Assembly (NCBI GenBank): GCA_030828165.1
Contig: JAURDA010000008.1
Span: 1 to 51,149 of the forward strand
DNA length: 51,149 bases
Reading direction: 5' to 3'
Source of the DNA: Candidatus Poseidonia sp.
GTDB lineage: Archaea > Thermoplasmatota > Poseidoniia > Poseidoniales > Poseidoniaceae
The position numbers were made by a program, and so were the translations under genes. Numbering within the stretch: position 1 is the first letter of the stretch; every line of letters begins with the position of its first letter. Below, one piece after another: positions 16,922-20,657 of this stretch. Below the pieces are notes generated by a model. That model worked only from the letters and a program-made list of their open reading frames with translations. It searched no databases and was not told the DNA's origin.

Positions 16922-18104
16922 CCCATCCCGTCAGAACGAGGAAGGTTGCACCGGATTCATGGATGGAAAATCGCTCTCCTGTTTGGCTCTCAAGCCGGTG
17001 TTCTCCAAATTGTGCAATCGCATCATCGACCGTCCACTCCATCTCGTGTGCGTCGTCCATACCGAGGACGAAGGCCTCCTGCAGCGGATTGTAGGCTTGG
17101 CCTCCATCGGGGTCGAGTCTTGCGAGGGGGAATTCACTCACGCGCATACCCGTTTTGCCGTGGAGGGACGTTGGCCACCGGATTTGACGGCGGACATCGA
17201 TGGTGACCACTTCATCGGTTTCCCCTGCATTGCCGAGAACGACCGAAGCATCCGCCTTCAAGAGGTTCAGAAACAAGCCTTGGTAGTTCCCGAGGACATC
17301 AAAACGCCCGTCTTTCAGGCGTTGTATTCGCCCATCGTGGTCGGTCAATTCTGCAAGACGTTTGATGGCGGACGCCGAGCGCTGTGAAGTGACGCCTTCA
17401 CGGTCTTGGAGGGATTGAAGCGCCGATTCGAGACGTGCCAGTTGACCGTGTCCGTCTTCGGTACCTCGGTGAATGTTGCGCAATGTGACGATCATGTCGT
17501 CCATGCCGTTCCGAATGCGCTCGGTCCAACCTCGTGCATCAGCATCGTGGTACCGGGCCAAACCGCCTTGCACATCAACGCCTTCGCCACGAATGTGCGA
17601 TACCAGTTCTCTGCGGGCCTCCGAATCCAAGTGAAACAGGCGCGGGTCTCGGTAATGTAAATGGAATCCTCGATGTCCAGAAAACGTCACCTGGAGGTGC
17701 TTTTCTTGAAAGCCGAACTCGGGCTCCAAGAAATCGTTCCAAAGCGTCCATGCTTGGTCCTGAATGACCTCAAGCATACCAGGGAAATCTTTGTCCGTCA
17801 CGCCGGGGAGGTGGTCGCCGTCCAAATCAAAAATCAAATCGGCTCCCTGCCAGAGTTTATCCGCCATTTTCAACTCATGCGGACGCCGCCAATATGCCGT
17901 TGAGTAGAAACACGAGTGCATGGCCCTTTCAGAAAGAAAGCGCTGTACCTGCCCAACATCAGAAAACGACTTGTGTCGGAGAGGAGGAGCGCCACCAAAC
18001 GGGATGAACATCCATTCTCGCGTTCGAATGCGAGGGGGTGACCACAACGAGGCGTGCCGATAATATTGGCCAAACCGGTGCGCTACCTTCGCCCATCCAC
18101 TCAC
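16908..18104 (-). CDS. priS: DNA primase small (catalytic) subunit PriS
   Basis: A 398-residue archaeo-eukaryotic primase catalytic subunit that makes RNA/DNA primers with PriL. The metal-binding DLD motif is in ADLIFDLDGDHLPG, and the nucleotide-binding SGHRGFHLHY is intact. HSCFYSTAYWRRP matches the conserved tyrosine-rich segment of the family. The start is GTG 18104; no ATG lies upstream in frame near it. PriL is not in the window. The downstream gap to the Pro-rich protein is short and holds a hairpin. The upstream neighbour is a small zinc protein on the same strand. Confidence 0.92.
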   Translation of the reverse strand: MSGWAKVAHRFGQYYRHASLWSPPRIRTREWMFIPFGGAPPLRHKSFSDVGQVQRFLSERAMHSCFYSTAYWRRPHELKMADKLWQGADLIFDLDGDHLPGVTDKDFPGMLEVIQDQAWTLWNDFLEPEFGFQEKHLQVTFSGHRGFHLHYRDPRLFHLDSEARRELVSHIRGEGVDVQGGLARYHDADARGWTERIRNGMDDMIVTLRNIHRGTEDGHGQLARLESALQSLQDREGVTSQRSASAIKRLAELTDHDGRIQRLKDGRFDVLGNYQGLFLNLLKADASVVLGNAGETDEVVTIDVRRQIRWPTSLHGKTGMRVSEFPLARLDPDGGQAYNPLQEAFVLGMDDAHEMEWTVDDAIAQFGEHRLESQTGERFSIHESGATFLVLTGWAASV

Positions 18105-18157
18105 GGCCGTCGTCCCCGACCGTAACTGATGGTTGAGGGTTCTTGAAGGCGACCGTT

Positions 18158-18367
18158 CTATTCCTGCTTCATCCAGAAGCGTTCGTCGGCTTGAGCGACT
18201 TCGGTGGAGGTGTCAGCTCCGGTCGCTTCAACGTAGTGCTCCCAGCACATGTAGTACTTGTCAACGACCATGGCGTTGCCAAACGTCAATCTCACGCCGC
18301 AATTGTGGCAGCGTGGGCCAAGTTCGCCGTTTGGAGCTTGGGCAAGTTGAATGTGGTCGTGAGGCAT
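18158..18367 (-). CDS. Small zinc-binding protein of unknown function
   Basis: A 69-residue protein with a C-x2-C and C-x2-H pair (CHNCG and CWEH) about 17 residues apart, suggesting one structural zinc. No family is recognised. ATG 18367 is preceded by GGAAGG at good distance; ATG 18373 is an alternative. It lies between the DOHH-like gene and priS on the same strand, with gaps of about 50 bases. Conserved cysteines and operon position argue for a real gene. Confidence 0.65.
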   Translation of the reverse strand: MPHDHIQLAQAPNGELGPRCHNCGVRLTFGNAMVVDKYYMCWEHYVEATGADTSTEVAQADERFWMKQE

Positions 18368-18420
18368 GGACATCCTTCCATCTCTTGGCAATCCATCCTA
18401 GTCTTTGAACTTGAGGTCGC

Positions 18421-18909
18421 TTACCACTCGGTTTCAGCAAATTCCGCTCGCTGCACCCAAGCCAGCAGATCGAGTGCAACAACGCACGATTCTGCAACCT
18501 CGGGGAGGGAGTCGGAGGTGAAACGTTGGAGAACAGGAATCACCGAACGATCACCGATGGCACCCATCGCCTCGGCCGCTTCATGGCGCACCATGACGTG
18601 TTCGTGTTCGTCCTCGAGGCGTTGAATCAACGTTGGAAGGGCAACCGGGTTTTGCATTTGACCAAGAACATAGGCAATTTCATGGCGAAGCAGGGCGCTC
18701 TCGCTGTTAAAGCCCTTGCAAAGGGCAAGACAGGCTTCATCGCTGCTGTGATTGCGTAATGCAAACACGGCGCGCATGCGTTGGAACATCGGTTGTTGTT
18801 CATCGCACAGGGTTCCGGTCCAAGACTGGAGTTCGCCGCTTTGTTCAGGAGGGGCCGGGTCAACCGACCCGTATTGACTGACTTGGGGGCGAGGTGAGTC
18901 ACCGTCCAC
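18421..18909 (-). CDS. Half-length deoxyhypusine hydroxylase-like HEAT-repeat protein
   Basis: A 162-residue alpha-helical HEAT-repeat protein that resembles one half of eukaryotic deoxyhypusine hydroxylase (DOHH), the diiron enzyme that finishes hypusine on eIF5A. Two His-Glu motifs are visible: LLRHEIAYVLGQMQ (HE at 76-77) and MVRHEAAEAMGAIG (HE at 109-110). Their spacing of 33 equals that within each half of human DOHH. The N-terminal SVDPAPP resembles the linker before the second half of the eukaryotic enzyme as I recall it, and VAESCVVALD is also DOHH-like. Eukaryotic DOHH has four HE motifs in two halves, so a homodimer would be needed to build the site. The start is GTG 18909, nine bases after mqnD; an in-frame stop lies upstream, so it is not a truncated longer frame. 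A generic HEAT adaptor remains possible. Confidence 0.75.
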   Translation of the reverse strand: MDGDSPRPQVSQYGSVDPAPPEQSGELQSWTGTLCDEQQPMFQRMRAVFALRNHSSDEACLALCKGFNSESALLRHEIAYVLGQMQNPVALPTLIQRLEDEHEHVMVRHEAAEAMGAIGDRSVIPVLQRFTSDSLPEVAESCVVALDLLAWVQRAEFAETEW

Positions 18910-18918
18910 GAAAATCCC

Positions 18919-19797
18919 TCAAGCGCCAATGAAGACCATGGAATCCGTGTCAAAATCCTCTCGGATGAGGCCAATCTGTTGGCCTTCCTTGATGAAGAGC
19001 TGGATGGATTTCCGCCCTTCATCTCGGTAGTCAATGGTCCGGTCGTTGACGTACATGCTGACAAAGGCTTGATTGGTTTCATCATCAATACCCCTTCCCC
19101 AGGCTTTGGCGAACTCGAGTGCTTCGTCGGGGGATTTGAGAGCATATTCGATGCTCATTTTGGTGTATTTGGTGATGTCCTGCATTACGTCCTCACCCAA
19201 ATCCCGGCGAACCACGTTTCCACCAAGTGGCATCGGCCAATTTTCTGTTCTGCCGTTCCACCACTTTCCGAGATCGACCAGAACATCCAAGTCGTGGTCC
19301 ACATAGGTGAGTTGACCTTCGTGAATGATGAGTCCGCTCATGTAGGTTCCGTCGAGGATTCGTGGGATGATTTCGTCAAAGGGGACAACGGCCACGTTAA
19401 CGTCTCCCCACGCCAACCGGAGTCCGAGGTAGGCGCTGGTTTTCAAGCCCGGGACAGCGATGACACCCGCCTTTGCCTCGGCCTCAGTGACCCCTTGCTT
19501 GCACACCACCATGGGGCCGTAGCCCTCGCCCATTGAAGCTCCGCAGTTCATCAATGCGTAATGTTCGGCGATGTCCGGATAGGCGTGAATGGAAACAGCA
19601 GAAACCTCGAGATCCTGATTCATCGCTCGATGATTGAGGGTTTCGATATCTTGCAGTTCGTGAACGAACGTGTACCCGGGCGTCGGGAAGGCGCCGGTGG
19701 TCATGGCGTGAAACATGAACGCGTCATCTGGGTCGGGACTGTGGCCAATTCGTACGATTTTGTTGCCTTCCAGGTCAAGAGGGAGTTCAACCACCAT
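18919..19797 (-). CDS. mqnD: 1,4-dihydroxy-6-naphthoate synthase MqnD (futalosine pathway)
   Basis: A 292-residue periplasmic-binding-protein-like enzyme converting cyclic dehypoxanthinyl futalosine to 1,4-dihydroxy-6-naphthoate in menaquinone synthesis. IGHSPDPDDAFMFHAM near the N-terminus is the MqnD signature. YGPMVVCK, VPGLKTSAYLGLRL and GLIIHEGQLTY follow in the family order. ATG 19797 (MVVELPLD) was chosen after GGAAGAGG; the frame extends to a TTG at 19860 overlapping the mqnA end. It lies in an mqnE-mqnA-mqnD order with the DOHH-like gene behind. Confidence 0.9.
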   Translation of the reverse strand: MVVELPLDLEGNKIVRIGHSPDPDDAFMFHAMTTGAFPTPGYTFVHELQDIETLNHRAMNQDLEVSAVSIHAYPDIAEHYALMNCGASMGEGYGPMVVCKQGVTEAEAKAGVIAVPGLKTSAYLGLRLAWGDVNVAVVPFDEIIPRILDGTYMSGLIIHEGQLTYVDHDLDVLVDLGKWWNGRTENWPMPLGGNVVRRDLGEDVMQDITKYTKMSIEYALKSPDEALEFAKAWGRGIDDETNQAFVSMYVNDRTIDYRDEGRKSIQLFIKEGQQIGLIREDFDTDSMVFIGA

Positions 19798-19856
19798 GCC
19801 TCTTCCAAACGCAGCCCCTTCAAGAACCAACCGTTGTAAAATTGAAACAAGCCCGG

Positions 19857-20657
19857 TCAAATCGGTGCAAACTCTGGGGATGTCCCCATCTTACAGGCTT
19901 CCGAAAGAAACCGAAACAATCCTTCCAAATGATGGTCGTCAAGCCGATTGAATACCTCGCCGTAGTATTGGTTGAGACGTTCGTAAGCAAGACCGGATTT
20001 TTCCATTGACCCGGCGATAACCTCCTCTCGTCGTTGACCACCGTTCTCAAACGCAGCCAAATTCTCAACCAAGGCAAGATGGGCCTGTTGGAGGGCCTCA
20101 ACAGGGGTATCTCTGCGAGCGACGAAGACACCGAAAATCATCGGCAGACCCTCCAGTTCCATCCAGGCCTTTCCGAGGTCCAATTGGACCATTTCAGGAA
20201 ACTCCCTCGCTGCTTCCAATGCTCGGTCGCCGATCAAGAGAGCGCCGTCAGCAAGGGACATCATGGCCTCGTAATCGGGACCCGTATCAACGTAATTCAT
20301 GTCCATTTCGCGTTTTGAAACGAGGTGCTTCAACAAGGCCACGGACGTTGCTGAATCGGAGGGTAAAGCAATCGTTTTCATCGCATCGAGGGGAATGGCT
20401 CCAAACAAAAGGACGCTCCCGACCTCACCTTGACTTCCGATGCCGATGTCCGGCAACAACAGGAGTTCATCGGCATGTTTTGCGTAATCAGCGGCGGGAA
20501 TGGGCGCCAGAATGCAATCCTTTCGCAGCACGTGCCCGGTCAACCAAGACGGTGGAGCTGCAAGGACATTCCACCGGGGGGACAACCCGTGGAAAAGGGG
20601 GTCGCAGTTGATGAACGCCACCCGTCCGATGGTCGAGAGCCAAGTGGGTTGTTCCAT
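19857..20657 (-). CDS. mqnA: Chorismate dehydratase MqnA (futalosine pathway)
   Basis: A 266-residue binding-protein-fold enzyme that dehydrates chorismate to 3-enolpyruvylbenzoate, the first futalosine step. The N-terminal GRVAFINCDPLFHGL and the following IPAADYAKH segment match the family; GLPMIFGVFVARRDTPVE is the conserved core. ATG 20657 begins MEQPTWLSTIG. It lies nine bases after the mqnE stop and shortly before mqnD. It is related in fold to MqnD but is identified by its N-terminal signature and length. Confidence 0.9.
   Translation of the reverse strand: MEQPTWLSTIGRVAFINCDPLFHGLSPRWNVLAAPPSWLTGHVLRKDCILAPIPAADYAKHADELLLLPDIGIGSQGEVGSVLLFGAIPLDAMKTIALPSDSATSVALLKHLVSKREMDMNYVDTGPDYEAMMSLADGALLIGDRALEAAREFPEMVQLDLGKAWMELEGLPMIFGVFVARRDTPVEALQQAHLALVENLAAFENGGQRREEVIAGSMEKSGLAYERLNQYYGEVFNRLDDHHLEGLFRFLSEACKMGTSPEFAPI

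Follow-up and report, generated by a model that had tools for sequence, protein, structure and literature searches.

A half-length candidate deoxyhypusine hydroxylase in archaea of Marine Group II

Results

The gene and its motifs

The window, by which we mean the whole stretch of 51,149 nucleotides of contig JAURDA010000008.1 (Candidatus Poseidonia sp.) that was analysed, contains a short gene resembling one half of eukaryotic deoxyhypusine hydroxylase (DOHH). We refer to it as half-DOHH, and its position and features are listed in Table 1. The reading frame opens with a GTG codon at 18909–18907, preceded by an in-frame stop four codons upstream, and runs for 162 codons to its own stop. A first-pass annotation, made from the sequence letters, had described this frame with its GTG start and upstream stop, as well as two His-Glu (HE) pairs at residues 76–77 and 109–110 and the segments SVDPAPP, FALRN and VAESC. 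All of these were confirmed: the HE pairs occur in the contexts RHEIAYVLGQMQ and VRHEAAEAMGAIG, and FALRN and VAESC occupy residues 49–53 and 138–142. The frame lies on the minus strand, which that annotation had left unstated. The frame was under purifying selection, with dN/dS of 0.06–0.07 against three relatives; two further relatives had saturated dS and gave no value.

Table 1. Coordinates of half-DOHH, its motifs and the adjoining gene in the window
Feature	Position	Strand	Description
Half-length DOHH gene	18421..18909	minus	162 aa from a GTG start; four HEAT hairpins in the AlphaFold2 model
SVDPAPP segment, residues 15–21	18847..18867	minus	Equivalent of the linker preceding the C half of human DOHH
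First His-Glu motif, H76-E77	18679..18684	minus	Equivalent of human H56-E57 and H207-E208
Second His-Glu motif, H109-E110	18580..18585	minus	Equivalent of human H89-E90 and H240-E241
mqnD-like gene (VitK2_biosynth)	18919..19860	minus	9 bp upstream of half-DOHH; conserved Marine Group II neighbor, not a required partner

Upstream of half-DOHH lie, besides the mqnD-like gene, a second VitK2_biosynth gene (mqnA-like) and a radical-SAM gene of the MqnC/CofH type, all mqn names being assigned from Pfam matches. Downstream are a 77-aa open reading frame and the gene for the primase small subunit.

Homology and predicted fold

A phmmer search among PDB sequences matched half-DOHH to human DOHH (4d4z) with E = 1.3e-66 and ~46% identity. 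Separate domain matches extended over the whole of each human half, scoring 110 bits for the N half and 118 bits for the C half, the latter match including SVDPAPP. The resemblance is well beyond chance: among the phmmer alignments listed, no single stretch of an artificial alphaRep HEAT protein scored above 33 bits. Only generic HEAT families passed in a Pfam search, and no NCBIfam model came near its cut-off; the NblB model scored 26.9 bits against a curated cut-off of 300, which places the protein outside the phycobilin lyase/NblB family.

An AlphaFold2 model computed from 41 family members (pLDDT 91.4, pTM 0.85) showed eight helices forming four hairpins, half of the eight that DOHH carries in one chain. 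Foldseek identified a HEAT fold like that of human DOHH 4d4z, which was the top match (E = 1.4e-10, 46% identity) with a TM-score of 0.80–0.82 on the query and an rmsd of 4.0 Å. Artificial alphaReps came next (E = 1e-5, TM ~0.67); their superpositions had a lower rmsd, near 2 (1.8 versus 4.0 Å for DOHH), but covered fewer columns at a lower TM-score. We rejected a generic HEAT or phycobilin-lyase identity on the NblB and alphaRep scores. The first-pass annotation had weighed DOHH against generic HEAT and PBS-lyase proteins, and phmmer and Foldseek bore out the former.

Active-site residues

In human DOHH the diiron center is anchored by H56, H89, E90, H207, H240 and E241, and substrate is bound by E57, E90, E208, E241, G65 and G214, according to the review PMC9117371. 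These iron-anchoring and substrate residues align onto only five positions of half-DOHH: H76, E77, G83, H109 and E110. The glycine pair reads G63/G214 in our numbering (PDB chain index minus 5) and G65/G214 in PMC9117371. All five residues were invariant in 41/41 Marine Group II homologues, and remained so in A2 and A3, alignments that also include copies from outside Marine Group II. SVDPAP was likewise kept in all 41, the seventh residue being P in 37 and A in 4. Each chain thus has the equivalents of E57, E208 and G214, and two of the four His-Glu motifs. A single chain carries half of the ligand set, which a second chain would complete, and from this we infer strongly that half-DOHH works as a homodimer.

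Distribution of the family

We found half-DOHH in 191/292 genomes of the window's class (24/38 of the high-quality ones). All 191 belong to the two Marine Group II families, f1 (the window's own) and f2, which together number 271 genomes. The gene was absent from all 21 genomes of the third family of the class, f3. These f3 genomes (e.g. G001, G003, G005) have deoxyhypusine synthase (DHS) and aIF5A, and their aIF5A loop read TSKPGKHGE in 16/16 cases.

Across the phylum, half-DOHH occurred in 104/389 genomes, nine of them other Thermoplasmatota outside f1 and f2. Its members occur in several families of Thermoplasmatota and share little identity. Every copy read in the family was half-length, including all nine outside Marine Group II, which upholds the earlier description of a stand-alone single half. 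A scan of genome contigs from 84,980 species returned 237 relatives. The best 80 of these carried Euryarchaeota or Poseidoniales titles except for three conflicting ones, and no Crenarchaeota were among the matches listed. The conflicting titles (Proteobacteria, Rhodobiaceae and Halobacteriales; L064 = JAJPHT010000023.1, L078 and L098) probably belong to mislabelled bins. A search of viral contigs found no relative.

We also searched the window's genome, which is 84% complete, for a second, different half and saw none. Its sole other match (E ≤ 10) lay on a 3 kb contig (G000:C97:1-3003, L002) that is colinear with window positions 17185–20186 at 78% DNA identity. We took this match for the copy of another population and not for a paralogue, because of that colinearity and identity, and a separate N-half gene in this genome was therefore rejected. 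The genome bin apparently combines sequence from two related populations.

Partners in the hypusine pathway

Matches to PF01916 (DHS) were present in 288/292 class genomes, mostly twice; the model also picks up a weaker DHS-like paralogue, and a match with E below 1e-60, seen in 255 genomes, set true DHS apart. For aIF5A we used TIGR00037, which detected it in 79/98 and 59/80 genomes searched, in place of the Pfam eIF-5a model PF01287, which detected it in 0/292 class genomes and gave a signal in just 2/14 control genomes. A survey by PF01287 would wrongly call aIF5A absent from the window's class. The motif PGKHG was present in all 137 aIF5A sequences read. DHS and an IF5A with the PGKHG loop occur in the same genomes as half-DOHH, a co-occurrence for which the first-pass annotation had proposed a survey; the window's own genome has both DHS and aIF5A.

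Outside Marine Group II, the genomes with half-DOHH had DHS in 9/9, aIF5A in 9/9 (partial in G324) and the haem-copper oxidase gene COX1 in 9/9. COX1 was found in 69/255 of the non-class genomes drawn (Fisher p = 5e-6 versus the nine carriers, uncorrected for kinship). The presence of the oxidase in all nine fits an O2-dependent enzyme.

A cluster elsewhere in the window's genome (G000:C84:34500-37050, L062) holds open reading frames that we assign to agmatinase, a SpeD-like protein and a DHS-like protein (SpeY), an arrangement described for Marine Group II in PMC10407285. Their predicted products are agmatine-derived putrescine and homospermidine.

Neighborhood and gene loss

The mqnD-like gene adjoined half-DOHH on the same strand in 92/96 distinct Marine Group II places; before merging, which reduced the 116 re-examined loci to 105 distinct places overall, the count was 98/116 loci, duplicates included. 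The pair stayed intact where its surroundings were inverted. Three of the four exceptions came from genus g9 (G106, G149, G176; L031, L032, L033), which has half-DOHH without this neighbor, and outside Marine Group II mqnD stood beside half-DOHH in 0/9 distinct places. Neither DHS (the one on C32) nor aIF5A was near half-DOHH in any of 117 loci, some of which were the same place fetched twice, and a neighboring gene for either was rejected as a feature of the locus.

Among the 80 Marine Group II genomes without half-DOHH, mqnD was found in 35. At 30 such loci mqnD, the 77-aa frame and the primase gene remained, with half-DOHH gone or reduced to remnants, and at two more mqnD loci there were at most weak, short traces. 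The other 45 genomes had neither gene, and there the locus may simply be missing from the assemblies. Decayed remnants stood beside mqnD in G074, G072, G290 and G238 (L320, L333, L329, L324), and weak ones (E about 1e-3 to 1e-4) in G034 and G014 (L315, L312). We concluded that half-DOHH was lost repeatedly in Marine Group II while mqnD stayed, and a functional link between the two genes is weakened.

Gene loss and the hypusine loop of aIF5A

We read the hypusine loop of aIF5A in 121 f1 and f2 genomes, some drawn evenly and others chosen by hand; the loop was cut in one genome without half-DOHH, and 120 were used. Eighty of the genomes searched were hand-picked, comprising most genomes without half-DOHH together with carriers of the same genera, so that the sample is non-random. 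The standard loop, K-S-KPGKHG-SA, was present in 62/69 genomes with half-DOHH and 25/52 without. When phylogenetically independent pairs were drawn from all 120 genomes, using a tree of aIF5A itself without the loop, the 19 pairs gave 3.8 in the expected direction and 0.4 against (median p = 0.25, not significant).

A rule made after this first test kept only those absences with a visible locus (mqnD found with its flank), leaving 90 genomes. Results for the two families differed. In f1, 14/15 confirmed losers had an altered loop versus 3/45 keepers (p = 5.5e-10, uncorrected). In f2, the counts were 2/6 losers versus 4/24 keepers (p = 0.57), which shows no association. Over both families there were 12 independent pairs: on average, loop change went with loss in 6.4 and 5.6 showed no difference, with none running the opposite way (median p = 0.031, range 0.016–0.063). 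On its own f1 gave 6 pairs, too few for significance, with a median p of 0.063. Adding two losers with standard loops (G064, G028) and recoding as a loser G041, whose half-DOHH gene has two stops, gave 6.0 pairs for and 0 against, with the median p again at 0.031.

Of the nine carriers that lie outside Marine Group II, eight had a readable loop, and all eight differed from the standard; altered letters are thus not incompatible with half-DOHH in general. The link between loop change and half-DOHH loss is lineage-specific, and we take it as moderate evidence that aIF5A is the substrate.

Discussion

Our analysis suggests, with a probability of roughly 0.78, that the protein is a homodimeric, O2-dependent archaeal DOHH acting on the deoxyhypusine of aIF5A. 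Each chain would be one four-hairpin HEAT half bearing H76-E77 and H109-E110, and a pair of chains would be placed opposite one another like the two halves of the eukaryotic enzyme. Paired in this manner, they would supply four His-Glu pairs to hold one diiron center, and the dimer would use O2 to add a hydroxyl group to the deoxyhypusine formed by DHS at the aIF5A lysine (PGK*HG). Pairing of the chains, the iron site, the hydroxylase activity and aIF5A as its substrate are predictions.

Other functions have to be weighed against this one. A diiron hydroxylase of DOHH fold could have been recruited to another substrate, for example in a step of futalosine-type menaquinone synthesis, as might be expected of a gene that sits directly beside mqnD almost throughout Marine Group II and travels with it through inversions. 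We consider this improbable, since the neighbor is missing from all nine outside places and from genus g9, mqnD persists in 35 of the 80 genomes without half-DOHH, including the 32 loci where the latter is gone or decayed, and in f1 the loss goes with changes in the aIF5A loop. Still less probable is a non-enzymatic HEAT adaptor built on a retained DOHH scaffold. The Pfam result and the many genomes that do without the gene would suit an adaptor, but not the invariance of both HE motifs and the glycine in 41/41 homologues, nor the oxidase in every outside carrier, which an O2-using enzyme would predict. Least probable of all, and in our judgment very hard to sustain, is an enzyme formed as a heterodimer of two different half proteins. 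Genomes G112 and G138 do have two divergent copies each (in bins with 2–3% contamination), whereas nearly all positive genomes listed have one match, and the second match in the window's genome belongs to the colinear contig of another population.

The origin of the halves is a separate matter from their function. Over 122 shared columns, 53 archaeal sequences averaged 48% identity to the human C half and 45% to the N half, and the two human halves were 39% identical to each other. The first-pass annotation had proposed an ancestor-like form. Near-equidistance to both human halves, each on average closer to the archaeal protein than to the other, agrees with that proposal; a tree of 34 of the 53 sequences, in which the human branches are long, did not settle the direction of evolution. 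In sum, the sequences are compatible with an unfused, ancestor-like form of DOHH. More specifically, the archaeal half might be a living pre-fusion DOHH, a homodimeric aIF5A-deoxyhypusine hydroxylase that gave rise to the eukaryotic enzyme by tandem duplication, with the eukaryotic SVDPAPP linker as the former N-terminus of the second copy and with repeated gene loss in Marine Group II going along with aIF5A loop change; we hold this full account tentatively, at somewhat under even odds. An unlikelier origin, which would leave the proposed function as it is, has the C-terminal half of eukaryotic DOHH transferred to archaea and becoming dimeric there. The archaeal half does bear the linker that belongs to the C half, and the C half was the closer one for 37/53 archaeal sequences (12 for N, 4 ties). 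Against a transfer stand the near-equidistance and the occurrence of poorly conserved copies in several families of Thermoplasmatota. A single clade of both human halves was not rejected by the AU test (p = 0.21), and the free tree does not show such a clade.

If the homodimeric hydroxylase is real, it bears on an old gap. Reports of hypusine in certain archaea go back to the early 1990s (cited in PMC6105217 and PMC5178350). According to PMC5178350, archaeal genomes had yielded no DOHH orthologue as of 2016, and PMC6105217 states that no archaeal DOHH gene had been found as of 2018. Nor did the titles and abstract openings listed for the open-licence literature, bioRxiv preprints aside, include a report of an archaeal DOHH. 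PMC5178350 gives hypusine for several Crenarchaea and mainly deoxyhypusine for Euryarchaeota, including Thermoplasmales. The idea that a half-length enzyme could explain hydroxylated hypusine in archaea therefore holds at most for these Thermoplasmatota, as the hypusine-containing archaea named there are Crenarchaeota; with no Crenarchaeota in the best 80 of 237 matches, half-DOHH does not explain hypusine in Sulfolobus. The abstract of PMC6461757 describes Marine Group II as the most abundant archaea in the plankton of the surface ocean. The family is a concrete, small and testable candidate for the missing archaeal hydroxylase of the hypusine modification of IF5A. If correctly identified, it could show DOHH before the fusion of its two halves, and its natural losses offer a setting in which to study the contribution of the hydroxyl group to translation.

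Among known systems, EpmC/YfcM hydroxylates EF-P, the bacterial homologue of IF5A, at the site of its modified lysine; its fold is not known to be related to that of DOHH. The PBS-lyase HEAT proteins NblB and CpcE and the artificial alphaReps share the HEAT repeat fold with half-DOHH, but their scores are far lower. Yeast Lia1 is another eukaryotic deoxyhypusine hydroxylase. The closest counterpart is human DOHH (4d4z), which half-DOHH resembles in its ~46% identity, HEAT hairpins, His-Glu motifs and SVDPAPP segment, and in occurring in the same genomes as DHS and IF5A. The difference is that human DOHH consists of two fused halves, whereas the archaeal protein is a single half of 162 aa, two chains of which would be needed to provide four His-Glu pairs.
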